From positions 49,125,825-49,189,824 of the forward strand of contig OY997591.1 of the NCBI GenBank assembly GCA_963921825.1: a stretch of DNA of 64,000 nucleotides, read 5' to 3'. The notes beneath the pieces were generated by a model. It did no database searches. It saw nothing but the letters and a program-made list of their open reading frames with translations, and was not told where the DNA came from. Below are positions 6,900-55,900 of this stretch, one piece after another (position 1 is the stretch's first letter; every line of letters begins with the position of its first letter). Origin of the DNA: Erodium maritimum (taxonomy: Eukaryota > Streptophyta > Magnoliopsida > Geraniales > Geraniaceae). Position numbers and translations under genes: made by a program.

Positions 6900-8575
6900 T
6901 GTTGGGTCTTGATGGAGGGTATGAACACATACTTGCAGCGGAAATAACTCGAGACCATGTCATAGAACACTACCAAATATTAGATACACAAGAGAATAAA
7001 CAATATGGATGTTTCCTTACCAACTAGTTCAAGAAAAGGAAGAGAACACCAAAGAAACGATGATCGGCTTGAGTCTCAAAGACGCCTACGTATCCAATTG
7101 GAATCAAAGCCACATAGTTCTTCTTTAGATGACTCAAGAACACAACAAGAGGGGGGAAAAGTGCCAAACTCGAAATTGTAGTGTGAGAGGGAGAGAAGTT
7201 GTGTTTCTATTCTTTTCTTGTGATTTGTTGTAGGAAAAAGATGACTTAAACCATCAACAACCATCAAGGACAAGTAAGGTGTGAAGCATGGTGTGAAGTA
7301 AGACAAGCATGGTGCTAAGTATGGCAAGACAAGATGGGTTAGGTGGTGAATCACCAACACCTTAATCCTTGTCTTGCTTACTTAGTACTAATTAATCAAG
7401 ACTTGATTAATTAGTTCCATGGGCCTTGGTTGCATGGGCCTTTCATGGGCCTCTTGGAACATGGCCCATGGCCATTCCCAACGAGGTCCCGTGACGTGCT
7501 CATCGCCTCCAAGCCTTCCATACCGGAAATGTCCAACATTATCCAACGCGATCAATCCCAAGACTCCAAGCCTTGTCTTGATCCGTAATGTCCTATTCAC
7601 TTACGGGCACATGACCCAAAACCCAGTTTTGGTCATGTCCCGAGACAACTCTCTTTTGGCCATTCTCCATAAATGTGTCAATGAGTTTCATCCTTCGGTG
7701 TGACCCTTAGGTCTATGCATGTCGATAGATCAACGTAAAATCCCATTTTACTTGATCCTATATAAGTGGCAACTAACGAGACTTTAGTATTGCCTGACAC
7801 TACATAGCGAATCGAACCAATCGATTCTAACCTTTCCGTCGTCCCTGTCATTATCCTTTTATCTCTGATATCCTGATTGAGATAAGGCATAGAGCCGTCA
7901 TCCTTATTATTCTCAATCACTGTTCCTTGATATGTGAGATGACTGAATATATGATACCTAGTATCATGTGCATGGCCATGCTATTCTTTCAGTCACTCTC
8001 GATCAAGCGGCCGAGAACCGATATCTTTCCCATACCTCAGTATGAGGGATAAATCCCTTAGCCGTCTTTCGTGTCACTCATGCAACCCGTCCCCAAGCCA
8101 ATCCTGGCCGTTATGGAAGCCCTGTTACGGACAACGTTAGGCTCATGTCAAACTTAGTTGTTGACTGCATAGTGATCACAAAGACTCCTTGGTCTAAGGA
8201 TACATGACAAGCTACGACACTGAATATGTTAATGACTCAATCTATGGCACATATTCAGGGCGGGTCGTCCAATATCATGTCCCACATGATATCTATGATC
8301 AGACTCCGGAATCCCATTCCAATGACTAACAGAACGTAAGCCATGAAGAGCCATCTTTCATACTAGTCGCTTCTAGTGAAGCTTTATTGACTAGGGACCC
8401 ATCGAGTGTGATCCATCTCGATCTATGGTTCTATTCGCATGGTGGGCATAGATCAGAAATCACATCGATATATTACTCCAACACATAAGTAATAGAAAGC
8501 CGCTTTAATCTTATTGCTAATGATGATATATACATTTGGACATTTATGATTGAACTACGGGCACTAAGACTAACA
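6900..8575 (-). repeat. Copia A 3' LTR
   Basis: The LTR is bounded by the TSD on the left and the PPT on the right. It contains a perfect inverted repeat with 14-bp arms (7387-7415), a cluster of GGCCCAT/ATGGGCC motifs (about 7419-7475), a long imperfect hairpin with CAAGACAAG/CTTGTCTTG arms (about 7325-7380), and a hairpin with constant loop at 7225-7260. The same blocks recur in all related LTRs of the window. Confidence 0.95.
7387..7415. promoter_or_regulatory. 29-nt perfect palindrome in A-family LTR
   Basis: The arms are ACTAATTAATCAAG and its exact complement, with one spacer base. The same palindrome is perfect at 14648-14676, 28788-28816, 34449-34477, 50933-50961 and 58357-58385. ATTAAT cores suit homeodomain-type dimers, but a binding role is inference. 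Confidence 0.7.
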
Positions 8576-12613: not shown

Positions 12614-14146
12614 TTGATCTACACGACAAACAAAATATAATCAGTAAACTGAATAAATTTTATGAAGATCAAGTTCAAACACCAACCAATTGATTCTAAA
12701 CCTTTAGAACCTAAAACCAAGATCCTTGATTCACCCGATTAAGCTGAACTAATGCTCACCACTTAATCGAGCTATGTAGGTAGGTCTCCATCCAATCACA
12801 TCCAATGTGACTCTTGGCTAGGGTATGTACTCATGTACACGGCTTACCCTATCTAATACCCTAGCTCAACCTCAGGCTGAGAATCGTAGTCGGGTCCACC
12901 AATTTTCAACTATGGCCCGTCACTATGTGGGTGCTCCGCTAATGCGCACGACACCTACACATGTCGTCCAAACCTACTACCCCGCTTTCCCATGGATGCT
13001 CCGCTAATGCGCACGACACCCATAGGACGGGGAGGTAGTAAGGTGTTGATAATTGGGAGGTATCGGACATGACCCGTTTTTACTTGTCCGGTTGTGTTTT
13101 AAACTTTTGGCACATCCTAGATGCGATGAGCACATCAACTACATTCCAAATGTAATGATGCCTCCAATTACATCCAATGTAATTCTTCCTTCGAACCTGT
13201 CAACTACATCCAATGTAATGACGATTCTAAGGGCTCACAGACAATGATTAAAACCAATTTTATCTTTGCATGTGAGGTGATATGCTCGGTAAATTAAGTT
13301 AAGCATGCAATTCTAAAACACATAGAAATGATCATGCAAAAACTAAACCAAGCATAAAGCGTTAAATATGTACATAATAGCCCACTAAACTAACTCCCAC
13401 TAGCTTCTTGAGCTCCACCGACTCCAAGCCGATGTCAAAACCCGAGAAGCCACCAAAGGACCTTTTCGCCCTTTCTTCGTCTTGAGTAAAATATTACAAT
13501 TTAATACACGACTCGCAGGTCGGGAATTAATAAATATTACAAATAAGTGGTACGACGACCACACCTCGAAAAAATAATTACACGCTAACTCTAACGGCTC
13601 GCAGGCCGTGAAAAGCGATAAATAATTAAATCAAACTCGGGGCTATTATGTACACCATGCCAACATCACATCACACATCGTGTTATCAAACAAGCATGTT
13701 ATCAAACATCATGTGATTTTCCGGTTTTAATTAATTGCCAAGTTTCGAAATTTTTTGATACTCGGTTTATCGAAACCGTTCAAAATTGAAACTTTTGAAC
13801 ATTTGATTTTTGAGTTCATCAAGACGGTTCCAAACTCGTCATGACTAACAAAACGGTTTAGCTCGGCATATTGACCATCCAATGGTCATGCTTGGCCTAG
13901 CTCCGTCCAACGGAGCCCCGTTCGGTCCCGGTTTCGGCTCCCCGCGAGTCCCGCTCCCGAGCCCGAAAAATCAAATTTTTTTCAAAAATTCCAGATTTGA
14001 TAAACTTTTCAAAAATTCATTTTTCATGCATTAAACCCATAAACAAGAATTTAAAACATGTTATCAAACAATTTAGCAAATTAACATGCAAAACCGAAAC
14101 TAGCAAGCAAAACCGAAAGTTCTCTTGTGAATCCCGAAGGTAGCAC
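12614..14146 (-). other. Copia A 5' leader with hairpin array and short repeats
   Basis: This is a non-coding leader of about 1.5 kb. At 13120-13222 it holds four hairpins (13199-13222, 13166-13184, 13133-13160, 13120-13136); three have a TGG loop on the coding strand. Two copies of a unit with core GCTCCGCTAATGCGCACGAC occur at about 12932-12955 and 12994-13017. A splice-acceptor-like site lies just before the gag ATG (AG at 12619-12620), and a donor-like GGTAAG lies in the LTR (14279-14282). The copy B leader matches; the A' leader has lost the hairpin array. Confidence 0.75.
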
Positions 14147-14160
14147 GGCTCTGATACCAC
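14147..14160 (-). other. Copia A primer binding site
   Basis: On the coding strand this reads GTGGTATCAGAGCC, beginning one base after the 5' LTR. TGGTATCAGAGC is the usual plant initiator tRNA-Met primer complement. Confidence 0.9.
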
Positions 14161-15836
14161 TGTTGGGTCTCGATGGAGGGTATGAACACATACTTGCAGC
14201 GGAAATAACTCGAGACCATGTCATAGAACACTACCAAATATTAGATACACAAGAGAATAAACAATATGGATGTTTCCTTACCAACTAGTTCAAGAAAAGG
14301 AAGAGAACACCAAAGAAACGATGATCGGCTTGAGTCTCCAAGACGCCTACGTATCCAATTGGAATCAAAGCCACGTAGTTCTTCTTTAGATGACTCAAGA
14401 ACACAACAAGAGGGGGGAAAAGTGCCAAACTCGAAATTGTAGTGTGAGAGGGAGAGAAGTTGTGTTTCTATTCTTTTCTTGTGATTTGTTGTAGGAAAAA
14501 GATGACTTAAACCATCAACAACCATCAAGGACAAGTAAGGTGTGAAGCATGGTGTGAAGTAAGACAAGCATGGTGTTAAGTATGGCAAGACAAGATGGGT
14601 TAGGTGGTGAATCACCAACACCTTAATCCTTGTCTTGCTTACTTAGTACTAATTAATCAAGACTTGATTAATTAGTTCCATGGGCCTTGGTTGCATGGGC
14701 CTTTCATGGGCCTCTTGGAACATGGCCCATGGCCATTCCCAACGAGGTCCCGTGACGTGCTCATCGCCTCCAAGCCTTCCATACCGGAAATGTCCAACAT
14801 TATCCAACGCGATCAATCCCAAGACTCCAAGCCTTGTCTTGATCCGTAATGTCCTATTCACTTACGGGCACATGACCCAAAACCCAGTTTTGGTCATGTC
14901 CCGAGACAACTCTCTTTTGGCCATTCTCCATAAATGTGTCAATGAGTTTCATCCTTCGGTGTGACCCTTAGGTCTATGCATGTCGATAGATCAACGTAAA
15001 ATCCCATTTTACTTGATCCTATATAAGTGGCAACTAACGAGACTTTAGTATTGCCTGACACTACATAGCGAATCGAACCAATCGATTCTAACCTTTCCGT
15101 CGTCCCTGTCATTATCCTTTTATCTCCGATATCCTGATTGAGATAAGGCATAGAGCCGTCATCCTTATTATTCTCAATCACTGTTCCTTGATATGTGAGA
15201 TGACTGAATATATGATACCTAGTATCATGTGCATGGCCATGCTATTCTTTCAGTCACTCTCGATCAAGCGGCCGAGAACCAATATCTTTCCCATACCTCA
15301 GTATGAGGGATAAATCCCTTAGCCGTCTTTCGTGTCACTCATGCAACCCGTGCCCAAGCCAATCCTGGCCGTTATGGAAGCCCTGTTACGGACAACGTTA
15401 GGCTCAGGTCAAACTTAGTTGTTGACTGCATAGTGATCACAAAGACTCCTTGGTCTAAGGATACATGACAAGCTATGACACTGAATATGTTAATGACTCA
15501 ATCTATGGCACATATTCAGGGCGGGTCGTCCAATATCATGTCCCACATGATATCTATGATCAGACTCCGGAATCCCATTCCAATGACTAACAGAACGTAA
15601 GCCATGAAGAGCCATCTTTCATACTAGTCGCTTCTAGTGAAGCTTTATTGACTAGGGACCCATCGAGTGTGATCCATCTCGATCTATGGTTCTATTCGCA
15701 TGGTGGGCATAGATCAGAAATCACATCGATATATTACTCCAACACATAAGTAATAGAAAGCCGCTTTAATCTTATTGCTAATGATGATATATACATTTGG
15801 ACATTTATGATTGAACTACGGGCACTAAGACTAACA
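14161..15836 (-). repeat. Copia A 5' LTR
   Basis: The LTR has the same length as the left LTR (1676 bp) and differs at roughly ten positions seen by eye. It carries the promoter side of the element. The 29-nt palindrome lies at 14648-14676 and the constant-loop hairpin at 14486-14521. Confidence 0.95.
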
Positions 15837-29315: not shown

Positions 29316-29329
29316 GTGGTATCAGAGCC
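29316..29329 (+). other. Copia A' primer binding site
   Basis: GTGGTATCAGAGCC follows the LTR and matches the tRNA-iMet primer complement. Confidence 0.88.
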
Positions 29330-29889
29330 GTGCTACCTTCGGGATTCACAAGACGGTGTTCAAAGTTTCGGTTTTGCTTGAAAGTTTCGTTTTTGGCATG
29401 TTGTTTTAAACACAACCGGACAAGTAAAAACGGGTCATGTCCGATACCTCCCAATTCTCAACACCTTACTACCTCCCCGTCCTATGGGTGTCGTGCGCCT
29501 TAGCGGAGCATCCATGGGAAAGCGGGGTAGTAGGTTTGGACGACATATGTGGGTGTCGTGCGCCTTAGCGGAGCACCTACATAGTGGCGGGTCATAGTTG
29601 AAAATTGGTGGGCCCGACTACGATTCTCAGCTAGGGTTGAGCTAGGGTATCAGATAGGGTAAGCCGTGTACTTAAGTACATACCCTAGCCAAGAGTCACA
29701 TTGGATGTGATTGGACGGGGTCCTACCTACATAGCTCGATTGAGTGGTGAGCCTTCGTTCAGCTTGATCGAGTGAATCAAGGATCTTGGTTTTAGATTCT
29801 AAATGTATAGAATCGATTGTTGGTGTTTAAGCTTGATCTTCATAAAATTTATTCAGTTTACTGATTGAATTTTATCTGTTGTAGATCAA
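29330..29889 (+). other. Copia A' leader (shortened)
   Basis: The leader is about 560 bases, against about 1.5 kb in A and B. It lacks the segment with the TGG-loop hairpins but keeps the two short GGTGTCGTGCGC units (about 29490 and 29553). An acceptor-like CTGTTGTAG ends at 29884, five bases before the gag ATG. Confidence 0.75.
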
Positions 29890-32800
29890 ATGGCAAATTC
29901 AGCGAACATTAATAGTTTGTCATTAAAAACCATTCTTGACAGGGTCAAACTAAATGGGACAAACTATATGGACTGGTACAGAATTTTGAGGATAGTCCTC
30001 AAGTCTGAACGCAAAGAATATGTCCTTGACAAGGCTGTCTCTAAGACCATATCAGAGTTATATGAAGTGTCATTAACTGCTGAGAAGAATATATCAGGGA
30101 TCTAGGATCCAAGGATATTCTGATGGTCAACAAGGGAATTGGAAGTGGCAAGGGCGGGGCCCATGCGCACTTGGTAGGAAAGATGAGACACATGAGAATG
30201 TCTGCTTCTACTGCCAATAGCCTGGTCATTGGAACCGGGATTACAGGAAGTTCACGGCTGATCTGAAGAAGGGCAGTAGGACTGCGCCTTCATCAGGAAA
30301 CCTGGATGATCTAAGGAAGGGCGGTGGGACCGTGCCTTCATCCGATATTAACTCCATAGAGCTACATCTCTCCACTTCCAAAGATTCATGGGTATTAGAT
30401 ACCAGGACTGAATCTCACACATGCACTTATATATGGTGGCTGAAAGTAGGAGAGGTTTGGAAAGCACGAAGTGGACCTCAGAGTTGTGGCAACTGCTGTA
30501 GGATCCATGAGTCTTGCTTTGCCAAAAGGCCTTGTCTTAGTACCGTATAATGTATATTGCATACCTACTTTTAGTAGGAATATTATATCTGTATCCGTGT
30601 TTGACAAGGAAGGATATAATGTTAATATGTACATATTAGATATGGGTAATAATGCCTCAAGTTCTATATATTCCGTTAATACCAAGAAGTCTAAATCCAA
30701 CGATTTAAACCTAACTCTGTTAAGGCACTGTCATTTAGGTCGCATAAACAAGAAGCACCTATCAGCACTTCAGAAGTGCGGACTTTCAGGTTCATTCGAA
30801 TTCCATTCGATCGATAGGTGCAAGGTTTGTTTGATGGGCAAAATGACTAAAGTGCCCTTTTATCGATCGCGATGAAAGGGCGGGTGAATTATTGGGGCTG
30901 ATACACTCGAATGTGTGTAGACCAATAAGTTGACTTGTCAGGAGGGGTTTTAGCTACTTTATCACATTTACTGATGATTACAGTAAATATGGTTATGTCT
31001 ATTCGCTGAGACATAAGTCTGAAGCTTTTGATAAATTCAAAGAGTTTAAGACTAAAGTAGAAAACCAGCTCGACGAAGGTATTAAGGCACTTCGATTGGA
31101 TCGAGGTGGAAAATACTTGACCACAGAGTTATTAGATCATCTAAAAGAGAATGAGATCCTTTTGGAATGGACTCCTCCTGGGACACTGTAGATGAAAGGT
31201 GTAGCCAAACGGAGAAATCGGACATTGTTAGACAATGATCCATTCCATTATTAGTTGGACTGATCTCCCAATCTCTTTCTGGGATTATGCTCTAGAGACG
31301 ACCGCATTCACAGTGAATCGGGCTTCGACGAAGGGTGTGGAAGGGATACTATTTTAAAATGGTACGGGATGATGCCCGCTTTGTCCTTCCTAAAGATTTG
31401 TGGTTGCGAGGCTTATGTGAAACATTTGGTTTCGACTAACCTCGAACCAAGATCTGAGATATGCACCTTCGTGTGGTATCCCAAAGCAACAAGGGGATAC
31501 TACTTCTACAATCCCAGTGAGAACATGGTGTTCGTCGCATGGGGTGGGGTCTTTATGGAAAAGGAGTTTTGTTTCCAAAGACGTCATTGGGAGGACTGTG
31601 CATCTTGAAGAAATTCAGGATGGTACAGATCTGTGTAAACCAATTGGCAACCCAGTAAAAAGGAGCCAGAGATTGTCGTAGAGTAAGAACCAATTCCTAT
31701 TACAATTCCGGAAGGTCCAAGGCGATTTGAAAGGATCAATCTTCCACCTCCAAGATATGGTATCCGGAGGTGACAATGAAGTCATGGTGGATCACGATGA
31801 TCCAGCCACCTTTCAGGAAGTCGTGGATGGGCCCAACTCCGAGTTATGGCTGGGAGCCATGAGGGAGGAAATGCAATCCATGTCGGACAACCGAGTCTGG
31901 GAACCGGTTGATCCCATCAATGGTGTGAGGACCATCGGATGCAAATGGATCTTCAAGGTGAAGATGGACATGGACGGCAACCCTCTGACCTACAAAGCTC
32001 AACTGGTGGCGAAAGGCTATAGGCATGGATTGACTATGAGGAAACCTTCTCCTTAGTGGCTATGGTCAAAATCGATCCAAATTCTTCTTGACATAACTGC
32101 GTATTATAATTACGAGATATGGCAAGTGGATGTCAAAACCGCTTTCCTAAATGGAAATTTGACTGAGTACGTTTGTATGTCTCGGCCCAAAGGTTTTGAC
32201 GATCCGAAGAATAAAGGAAAGATTTATAAGTTGTTGAAATCCATTTATGGATTGAAACGAACTTCTCGGAGTTGGATCCTTCATTTTGATGAAGCTGTAA
32301 TTGGATTTGGCTTAATCAAGAACGAGGATGAATCTTGCGTTTATAAGAAGGCTAGTGGGAGCAAGATTACCTTTCTGGTTCTCATTGAAAATGACATCCC
32401 AACCTTGCACGAGACTAAAGCTTGGTTGAGGAAGTGTTTTTCAATAAATGACTTAGGCAATGCTTGTTATATCTTAGGGATTAAGATATGTAGAGATCGC
32501 ACCAAGAGGGTCTTGGATTTAAGTCAGGGAACCTATGTGAACAAGGCATTGAGTAGGTTCTTAATGCTCGATTCAAAGAAAGTACTCTTACCCACTAGTC
32601 AAGGCATTTATCTCAGCAAGACTCGGTGTCCTAAGACAGCTGATGAGCTGAAAATGATGATGAGAATCCTATGCGCCTAGGGGCATGATGGATCATATAT
32701 GCCATGACATGTATGAGACCGGACGTCTCGCAAACCTTATGTTGTACCAGTAGACATCATTCTAACCCAGGGGAAAGATGATGCTGAACTAGTCGTCGAA

Positions 32801-39902: not shown

Positions 39903-40591
39903 TTCTTGGGGTTGGGGGTTCTGGGTTGGGCTATGGGTGGCGGTGAGTGTTGTGAGTGGTGAGGCTCTTCCTTTACGTTTGGGGGTTCTTGAATGTGGGT
40001 TGTCTGCTGCTGCTTCGTCTCTCTGTGAGTGGGTAGCTTTTTTCTAGCTTTGAGAGTTTTGGCTTGCTTCTTCGTGCAGGTTCTCTGGAGATCTTCTCCC
40101 TCCCTGTAGGGTTCCTCCTTGGTCGCTTGTCTGGTTCTTTTTCGTCCTTCCGACGTCTCTTTTCTTCAAAACTGAAGCTCTGATTGGATCTATCAGTCAA
40201 TCCTCCCTGTATGCCGGCCGTGGTATAGACGCTCTTCCCAATTCCGGCTCCGGAGTCGGATGATTGCCCAATTCCTCTCATCACGTTCACTCATCCTTTC
40301 TATCTTCACAAGACTTCAGACTCAGGGCTTTTGGTAGTAAGGTTTCATAAGACTACCCTCATGTTTTGTTCACTGCAATAGGAGCCTCTTCATTCAAGGA
40401 TCAGTACTGGCATCTACTACCCTTTAGTTTACTAGGGTAATGGAGGATTCACTTTCATGTCTTGTACTCATTATCATTGTATCTTTCATATCGGGTTTGG
40501 TTTTTGTGTTCGATCTGTAGTCGGATCGCAATTTTACTCCCTTTTAACCTCTAAAGAGGTTTTAATTTAATTTCGCTTTGCCGATCAAAAA
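39903..40591 (+). other. LINE2 3' UTR and A tail
   Basis: No gene is seen here; a 105-codon minus-strand frame (39973-40290) has no family features. The end has the hairpin AACCTC-TAAA-GAGGTT (40546-40561), then GCCGATC and an A run shared with the target duplication. Confidence 0.8.
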
Positions 40592-40605
40592 AAGTAAGTG
40601 ATTTT

Positions 40606-40697
40606 ATTATTTTAACGATGATTTAGATGCAATAGATTTGTTTTTGGATCGAACGATTTATTTCCGCTGCGAAGATATGATGTTTTTCGATCTTTCA
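40606..40697 (+). repeat. Copia D 5' LTR, second part
   Basis: This is the LTR remainder after LINE2, ending CGATCTTTCA. It contains ATTTATTTCCGCTGCGAAG, similar to the block before the LTR end in A, B and A'. Confidence 0.8.
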
Positions 40698-40712
40698 ATT
40701 AGTATCAGAGCC
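40698..40712 (+). other. Copia D primer binding site
   Basis: AGTATCAGAGCC after a short spacer matches the tRNA-iMet complement TGGTATCAGAGCC apart from decay at its start. Confidence 0.8.
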
Positions 40713-41906
40713 TTGGATTTTTTTTGCATTTGAATCATATGTGAAATTGGATTTGTTGTTGATATGTTTTTACCCGTATACGATGATCACGTAATATCAT
40801 TATTTGATTGGTTTTTACATGCTTTTTATTGGACAAAACCTAGCCGTAAACCTCAATTAGTTGTATTAATACGTGATAGCACTGAACATATCAACAATAT
40901 AAACTGTGAATTGCATGTGGTTTGATCATAGGCTACGCATATCATGCATAGCTCTGTACTGCTTTATGTATGTGCTTCTATCTCAAAAATAATGGTATGA
41001 TATTGATGTATGGAATTTATGGGTGTATTAGAAGCATGGTTAGCTTTATTCTATGTATATTTTATTGTTGATTGATGTGTATGAGTACACATGTTTTATG
41101 TATGATATACACATATTTAAGTCTTAAATGCCTAATGGATTTAAGATTAACCTTCTGCTTCTATTACCCATGACACACATATATTGATACATAAAGTTTT
41201 GAGAAACGATCGATTGTATTAAAATTGTTTTAATACGAATAAATCTTTAATATTGAGTTTTAATTGATAAAGTATGAGATATTTTGTCATCGGCATTTTC
41301 ATCCAAGTAGATAAATAATTGTTATTCGTTTAAAAGGAAAGACCTGACTACTAGGGGACTTGTAGTTCGGATTTTTTTTATATTTTATTTTTGTTTACAA
41401 GGTATGACCTGACTACCAAGGGACTTGTAGTTCAAAGATAAATATATATATTCCTCTTATTTGCATACGATGCAGGTACATAGAAATTTATTTAATGTTT
41501 GTACTTATAGTCTGGACTATCCAGAGGGTATAACTTTAATTAATTTTCAAGAGGAAGTAATTTTGTCTATTGCATGTGATGTGTGAGTGAAGAAAAATTA
41601 TTTGATGTTACACTTATAGTCTGGACTACCTAGAGGGTGTAATATTAACTAGTTTTCTGTCACTAGGAAGGATAAACTCAAATATACTAATAGGACCGAC
41701 CTGACAACCAGGTGACTATGTAGTATATAGCCTGTTGTGGTTTTATGTGATAAAATCAAGAAAAACTTTAATTATGTGTGAGAAACGACTTGACAACCAA
41801 GGGGCTCATTCATGTCTTAAAGTTTGTATTATCATTTTGATGAATCGTATGTCTTAGTGATGTATGTTTGTGCTATTGTTGTTTTCCTTTACAGTTACTT
41901 TCTGAA
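40713..41906 (+). other. Copia D 5' leader with six related hairpins
   Basis: This is a non-coding, AT-rich leader of 1.2 kb. Related motifs of about 30 bases lie at 41341-41368, 41406-41433, 41498-41534, 41609-41643, 41698-41725 and 41786-41803. Each can form a hairpin whose loop is ACTAC, ACTAT or ACAAC. A pyrimidine tract ending TTTACAG (41894) lies 12 bases before the gag ATG. No ORF has coding features. Confidence 0.7.
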
Positions 41907-43283
41907 ATGGCTACTATCTCACTGCGTGGCATACTTGATGCTAACAAGTTGTCTGGTAACAATTTTGATGACTGGTACCGGAACTTGAGAATTGTTCTCA
42001 TGCATGAAAAACTTATCGATGTGATCGATAACCCCATGATGGAAGCTCCCGCTGAGGGAGTGACTGATGTAGTTGCATTAGATGCATATTCGAAGTAACA
42101 GGAACGAAGTACTACTACTCAGTACATCATTTTGGCTTCCATGAGTCTTGATCTTCAGAGGAAACATGAGACTATGAATCCACCACATATCATAGAGCAT
42201 CTTAAGAAGATGTATGGGTCTCAAATTAGGACTGCAAGATATCAGATATCTAAGTCCTTGTTCAAATCTGAACTGAAACCCAAGGAACCAGTTCACACCC
42301 ATGTTCTAAAGATGATTGATCTTGTAGAACGGCTTGAGAAGCAAGGTTGCACACTTGGTAAGGAGTTATCGCAGGATTTGATCTTGCAATCTCTTGATGA
42401 CACTTTTTCACCGTTCATTGTTAATTATAACATGAACAAGATGGATTGTGATCTTCATGAATTGCTCAATTTGTTGATCGATTTTGAGAATCAAATCACA
42501 TCTGGGAAGGTGAAAGTGTCAGGATCTGTGAATCTGATCAGTAGCTCTTCTAAGGGCAAGTGGAAAAATGTGAGGAAATCTAAGAAAAATCCACTTGGGC
42601 AAAAGAATTATGTTTTGAACAAATTCAAGAAAATGAAGTTGAGCACTGGTCAGGAGGATGCTGAATGTTTCTTCTACAAGAAGAAAGGACATTGGAGGAG
42701 GAACTATCAAGAGTATTTGACTACTCTGAAGGACAAGAAACAAGGTAATGCATTAATGAAAAATGTTTTCATGATTTCTTTGACATCTATTGATGCTTCA
42801 AAATGGGTATTGGATACCGGAAGTGGTTTTAACATCTGCAATATGTTGCAGGGGCTAAAAATCAATAGGAGGTTGAAGAAAGGAGAGGTCAACATACAAG
42901 TTGGAAATAAAGCAAGTGTTGCTGCCCTAGTTGTAGGGACTATAACTCTTGTAATGCCTACTGGAGAGACTTTATTGTTGGAGGATTGTTATTACATTCC
43001 TACGTTTCTTTGAAACATAATTTCTGTTTCATATTTGGTTGAACATGGATTTCGTTTGGATATTCGTGATAATCATTGTTCTATATTTCATGGTGATGAA
43101 TTATATGTCGATGTTTACAAACAATATGGTCTTTACGTCTTACCTGAATTAGTTACTTGTCCTACTATGACTATCTCTGGCCAAAAGAGGAAGAGAAATA
43201 ATCAAGTAAATCAAAGTTACCTTTAGCATTGTAGGCTTGGTCATATCGGTGAGAAAAGAATAAACAAGTTGCATAAGACGGGG
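41907..43283 (+). pseudogene. Copia D gag, protease and start of pre-integrase
   Basis: The start ATG gives MATISLRGILDANKLSG, the usual copia gag opening. In-frame stops are at about 42096-42098, 43012-43014 and 43223-43225. The gag core runs through 42132-42620. The zinc knuckle has both a middle and the final cysteine as tyrosine (CFFYKKKGHWRRNY, about 42667-42710), consistent with G-to-A changes. The protease motif WVLDTGSG (about 42805-42828) is kept. The frame ends in the pre-integrase zinc region (HCRLGHIGEKRI), where C2 inserted, and continues at 63530. It is inactive. Confidence 0.92.
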
Positions 43284-46237
43284 TGTCACGCCCCAATTTC
43301 AGTAAACCAAACTCAGGACGCAAACGTTTAGAACAATAAAAATTTTTGAAACCTTTTACATAAATCACTTTAAAATCACCATTTGTTCATCAAAAATAAT
43401 CATTTACAACTTAAAGGTACGTCCCAACAAATGGACAAAAGCAAGGTATACGTCGCTAGACTCAAAAGTAAACCCAGAATCCCGCTCCTAGCTCTTCAAG
43501 CTTCGGAAGCTCACCTAGTCCAACCTGCGACCGGTACCTGTAGGAAAAGCAGCTAGGGGCGAGCGTTCGCTCACCACCACGGATAACAGACTGACTACGG
43601 CATACTTAGCAGACAATGCCGGTAACACCAACAACAACCCAAACACCGGGGATCACTATCCCCAACTCAAGTAACCCGACCGACACACACGCACTGTTAC
43701 TTTCCTCAACCGACTCAACACTCGGACACGAAATGTAGACCCGACCCAACGATTGCCGACCTCCTCCAAAGACACGACAGACAACCACGCAACACCCAAG
43801 ATCACAAAGGATCGCACACCAAACAAGATCACAAAGGATCACACGCCAGCTGCTCAGTAACCTCTCTCTCTCTCTCGCTCTTTACCGATCCCTGTCAGGT
43901 CAGGCGGTTGACCTGTCGCGCAACTTCTCCCGATCTCAGTCAGGAGGCTAGCCCACAACCTCTCCCCTACCCCCGATCTCAGTCTTGAGGCTAGCCACAC
44001 CCACGCGCACCTTCTCCCGATCCCAGTCGTGAGGCTAGCCAAAAACCTCTCCCCTATCCCCGATCTCAGTCGGGTGGCTAGCCACACCTCACCCAACTTC
44101 CCTGACACAAAGTCGGGTCTCCAACCTCAGGTAACCACAATCACAATCACAAGCAAATTTCAACAAACAGCAACAACCCAGGTTCAACACTCCACAGGCA
44201 CTCATGGCCACCCAAGACACCAACTGTAAAACACGGACTCAACAACCCCACGGGCACTCACGGCCACCCAAGACACACCGACAATAACTCACGGGCTCAA
44301 CAACCCCACGGGCACTCACGGCCTCCCAAGACACACCAACAGTAAAACACGGGCTCTCATGGCCACCCAAGACACAACAGTAAAGTACGGGCTCTCATGG
44401 CCACCCAAGACTCCAACAGTAAAACACGGGCTCTCATGGCCACCCAAGACTCCAACAGTAAAACACGGGCTCTCATGGCCACCCAAGACATAAGCTAAAC
44501 AATCAACCTCTGGGCATGGTCATATGCCTCCAATAATTCTAATATCGTTAAGTTCACTGCTCCTACGATACTACTAAGTGTCACATGCATTTCTAATGTT
44601 CGCTACGTTCCCGTATCATACGACACTACCCGGTGTCACCTGCCTTCCTAATATTCGATAAACCTACATAACCCACGACACCCCGGTGTCACATGCAATT
44701 CTACTGTTAACTTTCTCTAATCAGGGCCGAGATCCAGCTACTTTTCCCTACCTCGTATGATTTCTCCAAAAGCGCACTAACAAGCTCCGGCGTGATCTCG
44801 ATCACTCGCCTAGCTTTCCCTTTCCTCGGTCTGCAGCACGATCTAATAAGAACACAATTTAAATACCTTTAGGTTCGCAGACATAAACCAAAATTTAATA
44901 AACTTGACGCCCGAAAGTAACCCTGACAATGTCGATCACTCCCAAACTCCCCAATTACTCGACATTGTCGATATTGGACCCGGAAAAGCCCGATTCGCCC
45001 GACATGGCGAATCTGCCCGGGTTTTGGAAACGCCCTTCCGTGGTCCGAAAATTCCCGTTTTCGTTTCTACGGTCTTAGAATAATTCAAGGGTTCCTAGGC
45101 ACTCGACGGAATCGAATTCCGACTTCTGAGTCATTTAATTAGCGTTTAAAGTTTCTAAACCCGTCAATTACAACTTTCACAATTTAATTCCAAATTTCGA
45201 TCCGGTTGTAGATTAATGGTTCGGGGAACGTCCTAAACCACCCGAACACGAAACCCGAGCACCCGAGCACGTGGGACGCACCCGGCCACCCTTGCCCGTG
45301 GGTGGCTAGGGCTCAAATGGGCCCGGCCCACCATGGTGGTGGCCGGCACTAGCTCCGGCCAGCCACCCCATGGCTGGCCGGCCACCCCCTATGGTGGCCG
45401 AAGCTCCCCCCGAGCTCCCGGTCACCGGAAAACGTCCCTCTTCACCTTAAAACGTCTCCAACGATCCCCCATCCTCAATACAACCCTAAACTACTAGTTT
45501 TAAACCAAAACCTAATTTTAGAACTTGACAAAACGAAGATCGGTTTGGTGCTTACCGTAGAGGAAGACGGTGTGAGTTCGATTCTCCTAACTTTGAGACG
45601 ATCAAAGGGTTGGATGATCGGGAATTGTAGCACAAAACCTGGCTCCTTCTCTTTTCTCTCTTCTTCTCCTTCTCCTTCTTTCTCTAAACTCTCTTCTCTT
45701 TTTTTCTATTTTTTTTCTCTTTCTAAAAGGTGTGGCCGAACCCTTTATGTCCTCATCCTTCCTTTTCTCCCCAAAACCTAACACCACCACCACTTGTTTG
45801 ACAAGTGGCAAGGTCGGTCCCACACCTTTTTGGGGGAATATCTAGAAGATATTTTCCAATCAGATTCGCGAAATTCGGACGTTTCGGGCCCTGAACGGGC
45901 ACTTTTTCCAAGAAATTACGAAACTTCACGGGCTACATGGAAACGGCTCAAATAAGACCTTTGCGACGACGGCTAAGCTTTTTGGATCCAAAACGGTCCT
46001 CGAATGGACCAAAACGTCGCTTGGTTGACTTTTCAAGCGAAAAGTCAACATTTCCCAAACTGATCAGAAAGTTGCCCTGAGTCCCCCGGAACTCACTTTG
46101 GTCGATATCGAGGTCAACTTAAGTCCGGTATGACCCTCGGGGTCAATTCTAGGTTCAATTAAGTGTCTGTCTTAAAAATTTTAAATTTTCCTGTTTTTCG
46201 CAGGTTTGACTGGCGTTGACCGGGAGTGGTTATAACA
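43284..46237 (-). repeat. Gypsy C2 3' LTR (2954 bp)
   Basis: The LTR holds the same ordered blocks as C1: palindrome (43558-43575), unit arrays (43895-44095 and 44195-44490), acceptor- and donor-like sites, and a CT-rich tract (about 45650-45725). The array hairpins here carry more base changes than in the 5' LTR copy. Confidence 0.93.
43895..44490 (-). repeat. C2 3' LTR minisatellites
   Basis: Five units built on CGATCTCAGTCGGGAGGCTA (about 43 bp) lie at 43895-44095. Seven or eight units built on GGGCTCTCATGGCCACCCAA lie at 44195-44490. The second type is the reverse complement of the C1 array. Confidence 0.83.
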
Positions 46238-46262
46238 ATCTACCCCCCCCCCCCCCTAAAGG
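46238..46262 (-). other. Gypsy C2 polypurine tract with 14-G run
   Basis: C14 on the plus strand (46243-46256) gives G14 on the coding strand, ahead of TAGATTG and the 3' LTR. Confidence 0.8.
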
Positions 46263-46280
46263 AATTTCGTCCGCGAAATT

Positions 46281-47424
46281 TAAAACAGACGTACCTCGGG
46301 AGTCGATCAAGTCGGGGTACTTCGCGTGAACCTCGTCTTCGCGTTCCCAAGTCCACTCATCCCCGTGATGCCTCCACTGCACCCGTACTAGGCTGATAAT
46401 CTTGCCACGCAAGACCTGCTCCCGTGTGTCCATGATCCAAACCGGCTGCTCCTAATAGGAGACATCGTCAGCCACCTCGATATCTGTCCACTCAATGACG
46501 TGGGAGGGGTCCGCATTGTACTGCCGCAACTGGGACACGTGGAAGACGTTATGAACTCTCCCAAGTTGCGGTGGTAACGCTAGACGATAAGCCACTGCTC
46601 CCACTCTGCTCAAGATCTCGGACGGGCCAATGTACCGCGGGGATAACTTGCCCCCGCTACGTCTTAACCGTACCAGCCCCTTCCTCGGGCTCACCTTCAG
46701 GAACACGTGATCCCCGACTGCAAACTCAAGAGGTCGACGCCATCTATCGGCGTAGATCTTCTGCCGACTCTGTGCGGTCTTCAACCGCTCGTGTATCAAT
46801 GCGACCTTCTCTGTCGTCTCTCTGACAAGATCTGGCCCCAGCAGACTCTTGTCCCCCACCTCTGCCCAACACACTGGCGATCGACACGACCTCCCATACA
46901 ACGCTTCGAACGGTGCCATCCCAATACTGGCCTGGTAGCGGGGATCCCTATTAGACACTATCGACACAGGGACCACATGGAGACGCACTATCTCCAGAAT
47001 GTACAGGCTGCTCAACTTGTCGACCGGATCAGTCATCCTCATAGCCAGGAAATGGGCCGACTACTACCCATACGGGGTCATGTCCCTTAGGCGATCTCGG
47101 TAGTCCACACATGAAGTCCATCGTGATATGCTCCCACTTCCACTGGGCAATCGGCAGTGGCTGCAACAATCCTGCGGGACGCTGATGCTCGGCCTTCACC
47201 TGCTGACAGACGAGACATCTCGACACAAACTCTGCGACTGCTCTCCGCATCCCGCGCCACCAGAAGTGCCGCCTGACATCGCGGTACATCTTGGTGCCCC
47301 TCGGGTGCACTATAATACGCGAATGATGTGACTCTCGCAACACGTCGTCTCTATAGTTTCCCGGCATGAACAACCCTCCTCGATACTGTAACCCCCAATC
47401 AGCACTAAATTCCCAGCCTGTCAC
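46281..47424 (-). pseudogene. Gypsy C2 integrase and chromodomain remnant
   Basis: On the minus strand from 47424: an H2C2 zinc region (ESHHSRIIVHPRGTK ... CLVCQQVKAEH) and the integrase core start (ITMDFMCGLPRSPKG, carrying the first catalytic Asp). After a break the expected SDRD motif reads SNRD, so the second catalytic Asp is Asn. The text then jumps from DPRY to QASIGMAPFEALYG: the segment holding the third catalytic residue (Glu) is deleted. The integrase C-terminal domain is well preserved (ADRWRRPLEFAVGDHVFLKV, HNVFHVSQLRQY). A TAG at about 46452-46454 separates it from a chromodomain-like tail (LVRVQWRHHGDEWTWEREDE). Integration activity is excluded by these losses. Confidence 0.92.
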
Positions 47425-49771: not shown

Positions 49772-51459
49772 TGTTAGTCTTATTGCCCGTAGTTCAATCA
49801 TAAATGTCCAAATGTATATATCATCATTAGCAATGAGATTAAAGCGGCTTTATATTACTTATGTGTTGGAGTAATATATCGATGTGATTTCAGATCTATG
49901 CCCACCATGCGAATAGAACCATATATCGAGATGGATCACACTCGATGGGTCCCTAGTCAATAAAGCTTCACTAGAAGCGACTAGTATGAAAGATGGCTCT
50001 TCATGACTTACGTTCTGTTAGTCATTGGAATGGGATTCCGGAGTCTGATCATAGATATCATGTGGGACATGATATTGGATGACCCGCCCTGAATATGTGC
50101 CATAGATTGAGTCATGAACATATTCAGTGTCGTAGCTTGTCATGTATCCTTGGACCAAGGAGTCTTTGTGATCACTATGCAGTCAACAACTAAGTTTGAC
50201 CTGAGCCTAACGTTGTCCGTAATAGGGCTTCCATAACAGCCAGGATTGGATTGGGGACGGGTTGCATGAGTGACACGAAAGACGGCTAAGGGATTTATCC
50301 CTCATACTGAGGTATGGGAAAGATATCGGTTCTCGTCCGTTTGATCGATAGTGATTGAAAGAATAACATGGCCATGCACATGATACTAGGTATCATATAT
50401 TCAGTCATCTCACATATCAAGGAACAGTGATTGAGAATAATAAGGATGACGGCTCTATGCCTTATCTCAATCAGGATATCGGAGATAAAAGGATAATGAC
50501 AGGAACGACGGAAAGGTTAGAATCGATTGGTTCGATTCGCTATGTAGTGTCAGGAAATACTAAAGTCTCGTTAGTTGCCACTTATATAGGATCAAGTAAA
50601 ATGGGATTTTACGTTGATCTATCGACATGCATAAATCTAAGGGTCACACCGAAGGATGAAACTCATTGACACATTTATGGAGAATGGCCAAAAGAGAGTT
50701 GTCTCGGGACATGACCAAAACTGGGTTTTGGGTAATGTGCCCGTAAGTGAATAGGACATTACGGATCAAGACAAGGCTTGGAGTCTTGCGATTGATCGCG
50801 TTGGATAATGTTGGACATTTTCCGGTATGGAAGGCTTGGAGGCGATAAGCACGTCAGGGGACCTCATTCGGAATGGCCATGGGCCATGTTCCAAGAGGCC
50901 CATGAAAGTCCCATGCAACCAAGGCCCATGGAACTAATTAATCAAGTCTTGATTAATTAGTATTAAGTAAGCAAGACAAGGATTAAGGTGTTGGTGATTC
51001 ACCACCTAACCCATCTTGTCTTGCCATACTTAGCACCATACTTGTGTTACTTCACACCATGCTTCACTCCTTACTTGTCCTTGATGGTTGTTGATGGTTT
51101 AAGTCATCTTTTTCCTACAACAAATCACAAGACAAGAATAGAAACACAACTTCTCTCCCTCTCACACTACAATTTCGAGTTTGGCACATTTCCTCCCTCT
51201 TGTTGTGTTCTTGAGTCATCTAAAGAAAAACTACGTGGCTTTGATTCCAATTGGATACGTAGGCGTCTTGGAGACTCAAGCCGATCATCGTTTCTTAGGT
51301 GTTCTCTTCCTTTTTCTTGAACTAGTTGGTAAGGAAACATCCATATTGTTTATTCTCTTGTGTATCTAATATTTGGTAGTGTTCTATGACATGGTCTCGA
51401 GTTATTTCCGCTGCAAGTATGTGCTCATACCCTCCATCGAGACCCAACAGTGGTATCAG
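49772..51459 (+). repeat. Copia B 5' LTR
   Basis: The LTR starts TGTTAGTC and ends CCCAACA. It carries a TATA-like TATATA (50583-50588), the GGCCCAT cluster (about 50876-50932), the palindrome (50933-50961), the CAAGACAAG/CTTGTCTTG hairpin (about 50970-51022), the constant-loop hairpin (51088-51123) and donor-like TTG/GTAAGG (51329). Confidence 0.94.
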
Positions 51460-51473
51460 AGTCGTGCTACCTT
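51460..51473 (+). other. Copia B primer binding site
   Basis: GTGGTATCAGAGTC matches the tRNA-iMet complement except for one C-to-T change. Confidence 0.88.
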
Positions 51474-52999
51474 CGGGATTCACAAGAGAACTTTCGGTTT
51501 TGCTTGCTAGTTTTGGTTTTGCATGTTAATTTGCTAAATTGTTTGATAACTTGTTTTAAATTCTTGTTTATGGGTTTAATGCATGAAAACTGAATTTTCG
51601 AAAAGTTTATCAAATCTGAAATTTTTGAAAAAAATTTGATTTTTCGGGTCTCGGGAGCGGTACTCTCGGGGAACCGAAACCGGGACCGAACGGGGCTCCG
51701 TTGGACGGAGCTAGGCCAAGCATGACCATTGGATGGTCAATATGCCGAGCTAAACCATTTTGTTAGTCATGACGAGTTTGGAACCGTCTTGACGAACTCA
51801 AAAATCAAATGTTCAAAAGTTTCAATTTTGAACGGTTTCGATAAACCGAGTATCAAAAAATTTCGAAACTTGGCAATTAATTAAACCGGAAAATCACATG
51901 ATGTTTGATAACATGCTTGTTTGATAACACGATGTGTGATGTGATGTTGGCATGGTGTACATAATAGCCCCGAGTTCGATTTAATTATTTATCGCTTTTC
52001 ACGGCCTGCGAGCCGTTAGAGTTAGCGTGTAATTATTTTTTTTTTGATGTGTGGTCGTCGTACCAATTATTTGTAATATTTATTAATTCCCGACCTGCGA
52101 GTCGTGTATTAAATTTTAATATTTTACTCAAGACGAAGAAAGGGCGAAAAGGTCATTTGGGGGTTTCTCGGGTTTTGACATCGGCTTGGAGTCGGTGGAG
52201 CTCAAGAAGCTAGTGGGAGTTAGTTTAGGGGGCTATTATCTACATATTTAACGCTTTATGCTTGGTTTAGTTTTTGCATGATCATTTCTATGTGTTTTAG
52301 AATTGCACGCTTAACTTAATTTACCGAGCATATCACCTCACATGCAAAGATAAAATTGGTTTTAATCATTGTCTGTGAGCCCTTAGAATCGTCATTACAT
52401 TGGATGTACTTGACTGGTTCGAAGGAAGAATTAAATTGGATGTAATTGGAGGCATCATTACATTTGGAATGTAGTTGATGTGCTCATCGCATCTAGGATG
52501 TGCCAAAAGTTTAAAACACAACCGGACAAGTAAAAACGGGTCATGTCCGATACCTCCCAATTATCAACACCTTACTACCTCCCCGTCCTATGGGTGTCGT
52601 GCGCATTAGCGGAGCATCCATGGGAAAGCCGGGTAGTAGGTTTGGACGACATGTGTAGGTGTCGTGCGCATTAACGGAGCACCCACATAGTGACGGGCCA
52701 TAGTTGAAAATTGGTGGACCCGACTACGATTCTCAGCCTGAGGTTGAGCTAGGGTATCAGATAGGGTAAGCCGTGTACATGAGTACATACCCTAGCCAAG
52801 AGTCAGATTGGATGTGATTGGATGAAGTCCTACCTACATAGCTCGATTAAGTGGTGAGCATTAGTTCAGCTTAATCGGGTGAATCAAGGATCTTGGTTTT
52901 AGATTCTAAAGATTTAGAATCAATTGGTTGGTGTTTGAACTTGATCTTCATAAAATTTATTCAGTTTACTAATTATATTTTGTTTGTCGTGTAGATCAA
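51474..52999 (+). other. Copia B 5' leader with TGG-loop hairpins
   Basis: Hairpins lie at 52391-52414, 52429-52447, 52453-52480 and 52477-52493. Two GGTGTCGTGCGCATTA units lie at about 52591 and 52660. An acceptor-like TTGTCGTGTAG ends at 52994, five bases before the ATG. No coding sequence is seen. Confidence 0.75.
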
Positions 53000-55900
53000 A
53001 TGGCAAGTACTTCAGCGAACAATAGTAGTTTGTCACTAAAAACCATTCTTGATAGGATCAAGCTAAGTGGGACAAACTACTTGGACTGGGCCAGAAACTT
53101 GAGGATAGTCCTCAAATTCGAGCGCAAAGAATATGTCCTAGACCAGGCTATCCCTGAGAAGCCAGCTAATAATGCCATTAGGGCCGTTAAGGATGCATAC
53201 CAAAAGCACCTTAGCGATTCTATAGATGTGGCATGTATTATGCTGGGCTGCATGGAGTCTGATCTCCAAGACCAGTTCATGGAGTACTCTGATGACCCCT
53301 ATACTATGATGGGGATCATAAAGGGTATGTTCAAGGAAAGGGCACGCATCGTGAGATACAATGTCCTTAATGAACTTCTCTCCTGCAAAATGTCAGCAGG
53401 AGTCTCCGTGTGTCCTCATGTCCTAAAAATGAAGGTGCATCTCGAACATCTTAATCGACTGGGTCTTAAGATAGAGAACAATATGGCAGCGGATGTGGTT
53501 CTGCGTTCCCTTCCTCGTTCATATGCTACGTTCGTCATGAACTATCATATGCACGATATGGACAAGACCATTTCAGAGTTGCATGGAATGTTGGTAACTG
53601 CTGAAAAGAACGTCAAGGATCAGGGATCCAAGGATGTTCTGATGGTCAGACAGGGAAACAGTTTCAAGAATAAGGGAACTGTTAGTGGTAAGGGCAAGGC
53701 CCCTATGCACTTGGCAGGAAAGATGAGGCATCCGAAGCTTCCTAACCCTCCTAGGACCGGGGAGTCCTCAAGGAAGGGGAAGGAGGTCGAGAATGTCTGC
53801 TTCTACTGTCAACAGCCTGGTCACTGGAAGAAAGATTGCAGGAAGTTTCTGGATGATCTGAAGAAGGGCGGTGGGACTGCGCCTTCATCAAGTATTTTCT
53901 TTATAGAGCTAAATCTCACTACTTCCAAAGATTCATGGGTATTGGATACCGGGGCTGAATCTCACATTTGTACTAATGTGCAGTTGCTGGAAGGTAGGAG
54001 AAGCTTGAAGAAGGACGAGGTGGACCTCAGAGTGGGCAACAAGACTAGAGTTGTGGCGACTGCTGTAGGATCCATAAGTCTTCTTTTGCCAAGTGGGCTA
54101 GTTTTTGTTTTGAACAATGTATATTGTGTACCTACTTTTAGTAGGAGTATTGTATCTATTTCTTTGTTGGACAAGGAATGATACAATTTTGATGTTGGAA
54201 ATTGGATTTTCAATATTTTATGAAATGATATATTTTATGCTAGCGCCAAAATGGTTGGAGGATTGTACATATTGGATATGGATAACAATGCCTCAAGCTC
54301 TATATATAATGTAAATACCAAGAGGTCTAAGTCCAATGATTTAGACCAAACTTTGTTATGGCACTGTCGTTTAGGCCACATAAACGAGAAACACATATCA
54401 ACACTTCACAAGTATGGACTTCTTAGTCCATTCGAATTTCATTCGATTGATAGATGCGAATCTTGTTTGATGGGAAAACTGACTAAAGCGCCCTTCATCG
54501 GTCGCGGTGAAAGGGCGGGTGACTCGGATGTGTGTGGACCAATGAGCACACTTGCCAGGAGGGGTTTTAGCTACTTTATCACATTTACTGACGACTTCAG
54601 TAGATATGGTTATGTCTATTTAATGAGACATAAGTCTGAAGCTTTTGATAAATTCAAAGAGTTTAAGACTGAAGTAGAAAACCAGCTCGGGAAAAGTATT
54701 AAAGCACTTCGATCAGATCGAGGTGGAGAATACTTGACCACAGAGTTTTTAGATCATCTAGCAGAAAGTGGGATCCTTTCGGAATGGACTCCTCCCGGAA
54801 CACCACAATTGAATGGTGTGTCCGAACGGAGAAATCGAACTTTATTGGATATGGTCCGGTCCATGATTAGTGGGACTAATCTCCCAATCTCTTTCTGGGG
54901 TTATGCTCTGGAGACGACCACATTCATTTTGAATCGGGCTCCGACGAAGGTTGTGGAAGGGACACCATTTGAGAAATGGCGCGGGAGAAAGCCCGTTTTG
55001 TCCTTCCTAAAGGTTTGGGGTTGCGAGGCTTATGTGAAACGTTTAGTTCCGACTAAGCTCGAACCAAGATCTGATAAATGCACATTCGTTGGGTATCCCA
55101 AAGAAACAATGGGGTACTACTTCTACAAACCCAGCGAGAACACGGTGTTCGTCGCTCGGGGTGGGGTCTTTATGGAAAGGGAGTTTATTTCCAAAGACGT
55201 CAGTGGGAGGGCTGTACATCTAGAAGAAATTCAAGGTGGTACAGATCCAACTGATCCACTGGACAACCCTGTAGAAGAGCCTGAGATGGTCGTAGAGCAA
55301 GGACCAGTTCCTGCAACAATTCCAGAAGGTCCAAGGTGATCTGAAAGGGTTAGTCGTCCACCTCCGAGATATGGTTACTTTGTGTCTGGAGGTGACGGTG
55401 AGCTTGTGGTGGATCACGATGATCCAGCTACATTTCAGGAAGCTGTGGACGTACCCGACTCTGAGTTATGGCTGGGAGCCATGAGGGAGGAAATGCAATC
55501 CATGTCGGACAACCAAGTCTGGGAACTGGTTGATCCCATCGGTGGTGTAAGAACCATCGGATGCAAATGTATCTTTAAGGTGAAGATGGACATGGAAGGA
55601 AACCCTCAGACCTACAAAGCCCGACTGGTGGCGAAAGGTTATAGGCAGATCCAAGGGATTGACTATGAGGAAACCTTTTCCCCAGTGGCTATGGTCAAAT
55701 CTATCCGAATTCTTCTTGCCATAGCTACATATCACGATTACGAGATATGGCAAATGGATGTCAAAACCGCTTTCCTAAACGGAAATTTGTCGGAGGACGT
55801 TTATATGTCTCAACTCGAAGGTTTTGTCGATCCGAAGAATAAGGGAAAGATTTGTAAGTTGTTGAAATCCATTTATGGATTGAAACAAGCTTCTCGGAGT

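Follow-up and report, generated by a model that had tools for sequence, protein, structure and literature searches.

A repeated two-storey hairpin in the leader of a plant Copia retrotransposon, a possible recognition signal on its genomic RNA

Introduction

The retroviral packaging signal psi is carried by the genomic RNA only and lies downstream of the major splice donor; like the coronavirus SL5-type packaging hairpins, it comprises several 5'-leader hairpins in which a constant loop is presented on different stems. Ty1/Copia elements are bounded by two long terminal repeats (LTRs), one at each end, and their primer site matches the initiator methionine tRNA. In the barley Copia elements BARE1 and BARE2, distinct RNA pools serve translation and replication, and the gag-less subfamily BARE2 is packaged and keeps its packaging and dimerization signals, according to the sections of the paper drawn on here (PMC3735527). 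The Ty1 leader likewise contains a 5' RNA structure that is needed for retrotransposition, for RNA stability and for a proposed packaging dimer, and in which compensatory changes matter (excerpts of PMC5454406). Here we describe the leader of a Ty1/Copia LTR retrotransposon, identified as such by its gag and pol protein domains, from Erodium maritimum. It lies in a stretch of 64,000 nucleotides (the window; contig OY997591.1, positions 49,125,825 to 49,189,824), part of a 763-Mb genome (contig C4 of G000). By covariation and arm statistics the leader RNA between primer site and gag is predicted to be structured, as in psi, and its row of hairpins looks like a tag that marks the element's own RNA for copying.

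Six hairpins with a common fold

The original prediction had listed six motifs, three with an ACTAC loop, one with ACTAT and two with ACAAC, and all are present where it placed them (Table 1), within the last 600 nt of a leader that measures 1207 nt from primer site to gag. All six share a two-storey fold: above 6-nt outer arms comes an internal loop or bulge on the 5' side, then an upper stem 4-5 bp long, closed by an ACWAY pentaloop. The exchange of CCTG/CAGG for CTTG/CAAG in the upper stem is real. The outer stems TTACAC/GTGTAA and TTGTAC/GTATAA exist as well, but they are not a privilege of two motifs: the other four have arms in the same register (TAAAAG/CTTGTA pairs at 5/6 positions, TACAAG/CTTGTA at 6/6, TAATAG/CTATGT at 4/6 and TGTGAG/CTCATT at 5/6). 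Across the six copies 32 of 36 outer positions are paired; when 6-mers were drawn at random from the leader, none of 200000 draws matched this value. If each type is represented by a single copy the count is 21 of 24, which one draw in 200000 reaches. Among the seven ACWAY sites in 41331-41816, five are flanked by a 4-bp stem when wobbles are allowed and three when they are not, compared with a mean of 0.06 and a maximum of 3 such sites in mononucleotide-shuffled regions.

Table 1. Features of the leader and its surroundings, in window coordinates; hairpins are written as outer-internal-stem-loop-stem-internal-outer
Feature	Position	Strand	Remark
Splice-donor-like GTAAGT in LTR	40594..40599	+	106 nt 5' of primer site; putative function
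Primer-binding-site-like TAGTATCAGAGC	40700..40711	+	leader start; LTR-like stretch 5' of it
Upstream leader half, hypervariable between copies	40720..41238	+	pairwise identity of 8 copies
Hairpin A1 TAAAAG-GAAAGA-CCTG-ACTAC-TAGG-GGA-CTTGTA	41331..41364	+	decayed copy; among rows used for model R1
Hairpin A2 TACAAG-GTATGA-CCTG-ACTAC-CAAG-GGA-CTTGTA	41396..41429	+	one upper-stem mismatch
Hairpin B1 TTGTAC-TTATAGT-CTGG-ACTAT-CCAG-AGG-GTATAA	41499..41533	+	
Hairpin B2 TTACAC-TTATAGT-CTGG-ACTAC-CTAG-AGG-GTGTAA	41608..41642	+	
Hairpin C TAATAG-GACCGA-CCTG-ACAAC-CAGG-TGA-CTATGT	41688..41721	+	
Hairpin D TGTGAG-AAACGA-CTTG-ACAAC-CAAG-GGG-CTCATT	41777..41810	+	
Splice-acceptor-like TTTTCCTTTACAG	41882..41894	+	polypyrimidine-AG, 12 nt before gag ATG; putative function
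gag and pol start (Retrotran_gag_2, Pol_BBD)	41907..43013	+	stop interrupts frame

The lower stem of hairpin C is predicted to extend to 41686-41724 by ACTA/TAGT past a bulged G, so that the predicted partner of the GTAGT after this motif is the ACTA upstream. A pseudoknot between the ACTAC loop and a downstream GTAGT, as once suggested, is rejected as a general feature, though it may apply to A copies whose loop is ACTAC. Complete pairing is possible in 96 of 140 A copies, and there is no covariation because 16 of the 17 A copies with an ACAAC loop leave GTAGT unchanged (these still fit at four of five positions); type D is without a GTAGT downstream in the window. The alternative fold ATAGTC-TG-GACTAT (41507-41520) does exist in the first B copy, and the ACTAC loop of 90 of 101 B copies shortens it but does not abolish it.

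The array in sister copies

Exact searches of the genome place the A-type pattern at 300, the B-type at 280 and the D-type at 100 sites, with none for any reversed control. A sample of 40 sister loci plus the window (41 copies) holds 314 motifs: 140 A, 101 B, 38 C and 35 D. The order A(2-5)-B(2-3)-C-D fits 32 of the 41 arrays, and complete arrays hold 6-12 hairpins. The common forms are TACAAG-GAACGA-CCTG-ACTAC-CAGG-GGA-CTTGTA for A, TTACAC-TTATAGT-CTGG-ACTAC-CCAG-AGG-GTGTAA for B, TAATAG-GACCGA-CCTG-ACAAC-CAGG-TGA-CTATGT for C and TATGAG-AAACGA-CTTG-ACAAC-CAAG-GGG-CTCATT for D. Nine arrays deviate: L015, L020, L021 and L026 show only A within the fetched stretch, L029 reads AAAB, L016 is without D and has a long internal gap, L023 is without a recognised C, and L028 and L047 multiply the B-C unit (BCBCBC). 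This last pattern shows that array length evolves by unit duplication.

The idea of a repeated RNA site with near-constant loops on compensating stems is supported by these copies elsewhere in the genome, within one family. Two more distant Copia families have hairpins of another kind: in 16 of their loci (5 + 11) a model, R1, built from picked rows of A, C and D, found nothing significant, the best score being 13.2 bits (E 0.12). Recurrence in sister elements, the absence of which the original prediction named as refuting, holds for sister copies of the family and was not seen in these 16 loci. Five of them, L051 and L060-L063, give the same partial match of 8.4 bits (E 3.2-3.9), which is taken as chance. 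When R1 was scanned against the window, the B hairpins were not detected. A pattern that ignored stem pairing and required a first stem base other than C revealed no further family (124 places versus 168 in the reversed control; of the 100 places listed, some are variant copies of the focal family), and IMG/VR returned neither a match to the motif pattern nor a gag relative. Rfam gave seven matches to 40601-41910 at E 2.2 to 6.4, every one below the gathering threshold.

Compensatory change in the stems

Over all 314 copies, 1720 of 1884 outer cells and 1224 of 1256 inner cells are paired. RNAalifold, given no structure, recovers the hairpin on 20 chosen A/C/D rows and on 10 B rows, in which TT also pairs with GG and leaves a 4-nt bulge. 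In a joint alignment of all four types the B outer stem stood one column out of register and only the upper stem was recovered there; A/C/D and B were therefore scored apart. The first 21 copies contain 48 distinct A/C/D cores; three of these have indels and were omitted, and the A/C/D set consists of the other 45. Of its 450 cells 90.2% are paired, against 79.8% in shuffled and 20-61% in slid controls, and two-sided change with pairing retained occurs in 48 cells versus 10.7 in shuffles. All 26 distinct B cores together have 95.8% of 286 cells paired (94.7% shuffled, with 6 of 500 shuffles as high; 29-52% slid). Earlier counts on 20 + 10 hand-picked rows out of 74 distinct cores had given 91.5% of 200 and 98.2% of 110 cells, respectively.

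A second line of evidence comes from exchanging 5' and 3' arms between motif types within a locus. Cognate outer arms pair on average at 5.85 of 6 positions in A, 5.64-5.84 in B, 4.03 in C and 4.97 in D; swapped arms reach only 1.0-2.2 between A and B or D and B, and 2.57 for A 5' with D 3'. B positions swapped with one another keep 5.2-6.0 of 6. Upper-stem swaps discriminate less (2.0 for A or C 5' with B 3', 2.9-4.0 for most others). Paired exchanges also separate subfamilies, TTACAC/GTGTAA versus TTATAC/GTATAA in B, and TATGAG/CTCATT versus TGTGAG/CTCACT in D, where the G-U form TGTGAG/CTCATT occurs as well. The wobbles are of the kind seen in sense RNA: 109 cells are G-U and 27 are A-C, the remainder being 2835 Watson-Crick cells and 169 others. 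Most of the G-U cells trace to a few inherited changes. The differences between motif types are, judging from these alignments, compensatory.

Conservation and the gag-dead lineage

The gag comparison covers 34 loci with a scored match in the front part of the second gag piece. Eight of these, including the window, carry window-type gag (89-100% identity), five of them without a stop inside the aligned pieces; in the focal copy the stop falls between the pieces, and matches to window-type gag elsewhere in the genome have open frames up to 1376 aa. Averaged over the 28 pairs that these eight copies form, array identity is 94% (0.88-0.98), whereas the upstream leader half averages 0.42 (0.33-0.55), close to the 0.37 of one shuffled control. 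The array is under constraint and the upstream half nearly free of it. Fast turnover and recombination are options for the hypervariable upstream half.

In the other 26 loci gag is 52-78% identical in local alignment, with stops at query positions 39, 82 and 196 common to 24, 24 and 22 loci. Because these stops are common to so many insertions, they suggest that the lineage spread after its gag had died, and such copies were probably mobilised in trans. The array is kept in these elements, which would make no Gag of their own; L009-L012, L014, L025, L027 and other long-array loci are gag-dead and mostly carry 3-5 A and 3 B. The two lineages were compared over 32 of the 41 loci (eight window-type, 24 gag-dead; five without D were dropped, and L016, L017, L043 and L044 set aside). 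The majority letter differs at 0 of 103 positions in the B/C/D cores, 12 of 228 in the spacers and 158 of 766 in gag, and the difference between gag and core has p 3e-10.

Other Copia families with leader hairpins of their own

A gag search of the genome, in which 130 of 3338 candidates were scored, also yielded families at 31-35% identity with open frames up to 1350 aa. Family S1 (L050, L051, L056-L063, L065, L066 and three window elements) has ACAT-TGG-ATGT hairpins in its leader. Their outer stems differ between subfamilies, CGTCA/TGACG being exchanged for CGTCT/AGACG, and CATCA/TGATG for CGTCA/TGACG. A second hairpin, around GTCGTGCGCMTTAGCGGAG, is duplicated as well. When the minimum-energy fold of L050 was transferred to five members of the other S1 subfamily, 24 cells showed two-sided change with pairing kept, versus 3-11 in slid controls; six pairs account for these 24, and two of the six belong to the repeated hairpins, while 88 of 1025 compared cells were broken. 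The S1 leaders in the window lie at 12609-14159 (-), 29317-29894 (+) and 51451-53004 (+). They contain exact GGGTGTCGTGCGCMTTAGCGGAGCA at 13021-12997 (-), 29486-29510, 29551-29575 and 52592-52616, and ACATTGGATGT at 13216-13206, 13180-13170 and 12808-12798 (-), 29698-29708 and 52397-52407. At 8690-12640 (-) the S1 gag start is part of a frame that runs for 1316 aa without interruption and has a repeated stretch on each side (6900-7199, 14161-14460).

Family S2 (L052-L054 and L064, with L052 and L054 partial) repeats TAGGTTAYGCCAAAGCGTGGTG up to five times in its leader, the stems being for example CTATGTG/CACATAG or TTGTGTG/CACACAA. Eleven copies gave 10 distinct rows, and 98.8% of the 160 cells in these are paired (96.9% shuffled, with 1 of 500 as high; 9-64% slid). 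L053 (about 1329-1600) and L064 have four and five leader hairpins with the near-constant tip GTTAYGCCAAAGCGTGG on compensating stems. The S1 and S2 tips both differ from the focal one: three families have three tips.

A proposed function and its rivals

We propose that the array serves on the genomic RNA as a recognition signal, repeated in several copies and specific to the family. Its most likely reader is Gag, and the step served would be packaging; we put the probability of this reading at about 0.5. The leader array of 6-12 copies of one two-storey hairpin would sit on the unspliced genomic RNA, where the element's own Gag would bind it and select that RNA for packaging into particles. 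An intron reaching from a donor in the LTR to an acceptor before gag would remove the array from the translated mRNA, so that only the genomic RNA would then carry it, as with retroviral psi. The original prediction named Gag or a host protein as the reader, which is plausible and indirectly favoured by retention of the array in the gag-dead lineage. The different tips of different families argue, short of proof, for an element-encoded reader over a shared host factor. More tentatively, each plant Copia family might own a private hairpin array inside a leader intron, read by its Gag, and packaging would then be confined to the unspliced genomic RNA of that family and its gag-less parasites; in this general form we regard the idea as possible rather than probable.

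The splicing step is predicted from candidate sites. In 28 of 41 copies the primer site is preceded by GTAAGT at a distance of 98-113 nt. On visual inspection, the LTRs of S1 and S2 likewise contain sites resembling a GT donor, and a TGTAG immediately precedes gag in both families. The putative leader intron of the window copy would span 1301 nt, and if the leader is spliced, the array and the primer site would be lost from the gag mRNA and retained on the genomic RNA only.

The position of the array inside this putative intron, with its 42 ATGs, also suits the main rival, control of nuclear export or splicing: a host factor recruited by the hairpins would let unspliced RNA out of the nucleus or shield it from splicing, and the gag-dead lineage would need such an element too. 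The constitutive transport element (CTE) is an export element of this sort in animal retroelements. We nevertheless consider this rival rather unlikely, since a shared host factor would favour one tip where the three Copia families differ, and splicing itself is a prediction from candidate sites. Export of plant LTR-element RNA has not been directly studied, while the RTE and MTE of animal retroelements, taken to act in the manner proposed here, are described, in the parts of a 2025 review that we draw on (PMC12786077).

In three copies 38, 43 and 40 ATGs precede gag downstream of the primer site, so many that ordinary cap scanning should fail without help, and this suits an effect of the hairpins on translation ahead of gag, be it ribosome shunting, internal entry or repression. 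Such an effect is improbable all the same, as the array is kept where gag has several shared stops and its translation would be useless; retention in the gag-dead lineage argues against a role in translating gag without proving the point. Still less probable is a functionless minisatellite, a by-product of slippage or strand transfer during reverse transcription. The variable number of A copies, spaced mostly about 58-110 nt apart, and the multiplied B-C units of L028 and L047 would fit such an origin, but the stems of different types are compensatory rather than identical, and the array is conserved where the upstream half is not. A repeated transcription-factor site in the DNA downstream of the LTR promoter, to which the overlapping inverted repeats in B motifs (such as the alternative fold of B1) might point, is very improbable given lower stems that vary in sequence and an excess of G-U over A-C cells that paired DNA arms would not favour, an excess that is moderate evidence, as a few inherited changes give most G-U cells.

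Several observations weigh against a conserved RNA signal read by Gag, beginning with the fold itself, which was first noticed on these same sequences and scored afterwards. Single-hairpin folding energies are modest (z -1.53, -0.30, -1.76, -2.01, -2.01, -0.94), and both window A copies are decayed. The minimum-energy fold of A1 is a different hairpin; that of A2 has the lower stem and loses the pentaloop, its upper stem having a C-A mismatch at a position that is C-G in most copies. With hairpins so unremarkable in energy and decayed A copies, the case rests on comparison, not energy. Motif C alone is non-significant by pair number (p 0.22), its uninterrupted run having p 0.017. In the A/C/D set, neither the pairs with two-sided change (4) nor the pair types (12) exceed the shuffles, as expected with so few motif types, and B alone is weak, with two-sided change at one pair (a U-A/C-G exchange). 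The evidence amounts to about four motif types and few subfamily changes, not hundreds of events. Some swapped arms pair well: C 5' with A or B 3' arms reaches 3.8-4.0, B 5' with C 3' 3.2-3.7, and D 5' with A 3' 5.79, above the D cognate. The swap test consequently separates A from B and D from B, and is uninformative for C.

The splice sites and the lineage comparison are open to similar objections. The donor stretch was not found in 13 of 41 copies, 12 of them also without a primer-site match in the fetched upstream DNA; such copies may be truncated or use another primer. L023, L024, L026, L029, L032-L035, L038, L041 and L042 have neither at the usual distance, and L034 has primer-site-like matches too far upstream. 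Of the 35 copies that can be read at the acceptor, 20 keep the AG: seven of the eight whose gag is window-type and 13 of the remaining 27. Part of the gag-dead lineage has lost it. Core and spacer differ only at p = 0.02 (Fisher), and because the spacers are also well conserved between lineages (5% differing), template switching may have carried the whole 3' leader from one to the other. L017 and L043 join a short array to decayed gag, and L049, a gag relative at 70%, is without array or primer-site match in 2.1 kb upstream. Plant LTR elements are moreover generally without introns, Ogre and EVADE being notable exceptions in the portion of the review consulted (PMC12786077).

The element in the window

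The stop that interrupts the gag/pol frame leaves the focal copy unable to make a whole protein. In a domain search its open piece 42099-43010 matched Retrotran_gag_2 (E 4.3e-9) and Pol_BBD (E 3.5e-7), and the 63-aa piece preceding it had no domain match. The primer-site-like sequence at 40700 is one letter off TGGTATCAGAGC, a usual plant form. Window matches to 40001-46300 include no second LTR for the focal copy and have only pol in common, from 43284 onward, so that no sister leader could be drawn from within the window. Similarity to the window stretches at 60654, 35822 and 21931 starts in every case at base 43284, which is probably the edge of a nested element, and primer-site matches adjoin two of these stretches (21935, 60650).

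Comparison with known systems

The proposed recognition signal offers concrete openings. A covarying hairpin with a family-specific tip is a short RNA on which Gag binding can be tested, the tip could serve as a marker that pairs non-autonomous families with their helpers from sequence alone, and the leader intron is a prediction that long-read RNA can check directly. Among the titles and abstract openings listed in searches of the open-licence literature (subscription papers being outside this scope) none describes repeated leader hairpins of this kind. The psi and SL5-type signals differ from the focal array in loops and mode of replication, and binding of the array is predicted rather than observed. 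Sireviruses resemble it in that repeated conserved non-coding motifs occur in plant Copia elements; theirs comprise CGG-CCG motifs, located in the LTRs and ahead of env, together with polypurine copies and, at the 3' LTR, an inverted repeat, and leader hairpins are not described in the parts of the paper used (PMC2829016). Diaspora, a soybean Ty3-gypsy element, also has a long leader, for which splice donors were predicted within the LTR and acceptors on either side of the point where gag begins; it belongs to the gypsy class, and its authors, writing in 2005, did not decide in the passages at hand whether the sites are relevant and were aware of no report of an intron preceding gag in any retrovirus or LTR retrotransposon (PMC1142308). 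The Ty1 leader, as portrayed in the cited excerpts, uses two hairpins with complementary tips and a pseudoknot (PMC5454406), unlike the focal ACWAC tips, which are not self-complementary. No repeated hairpin array is described for BARE1 and BARE2 in the sections cited (PMC3735527), but the gag-less BARE2 is the nearest precedent found for a lineage that has lost its gag and kept its array.
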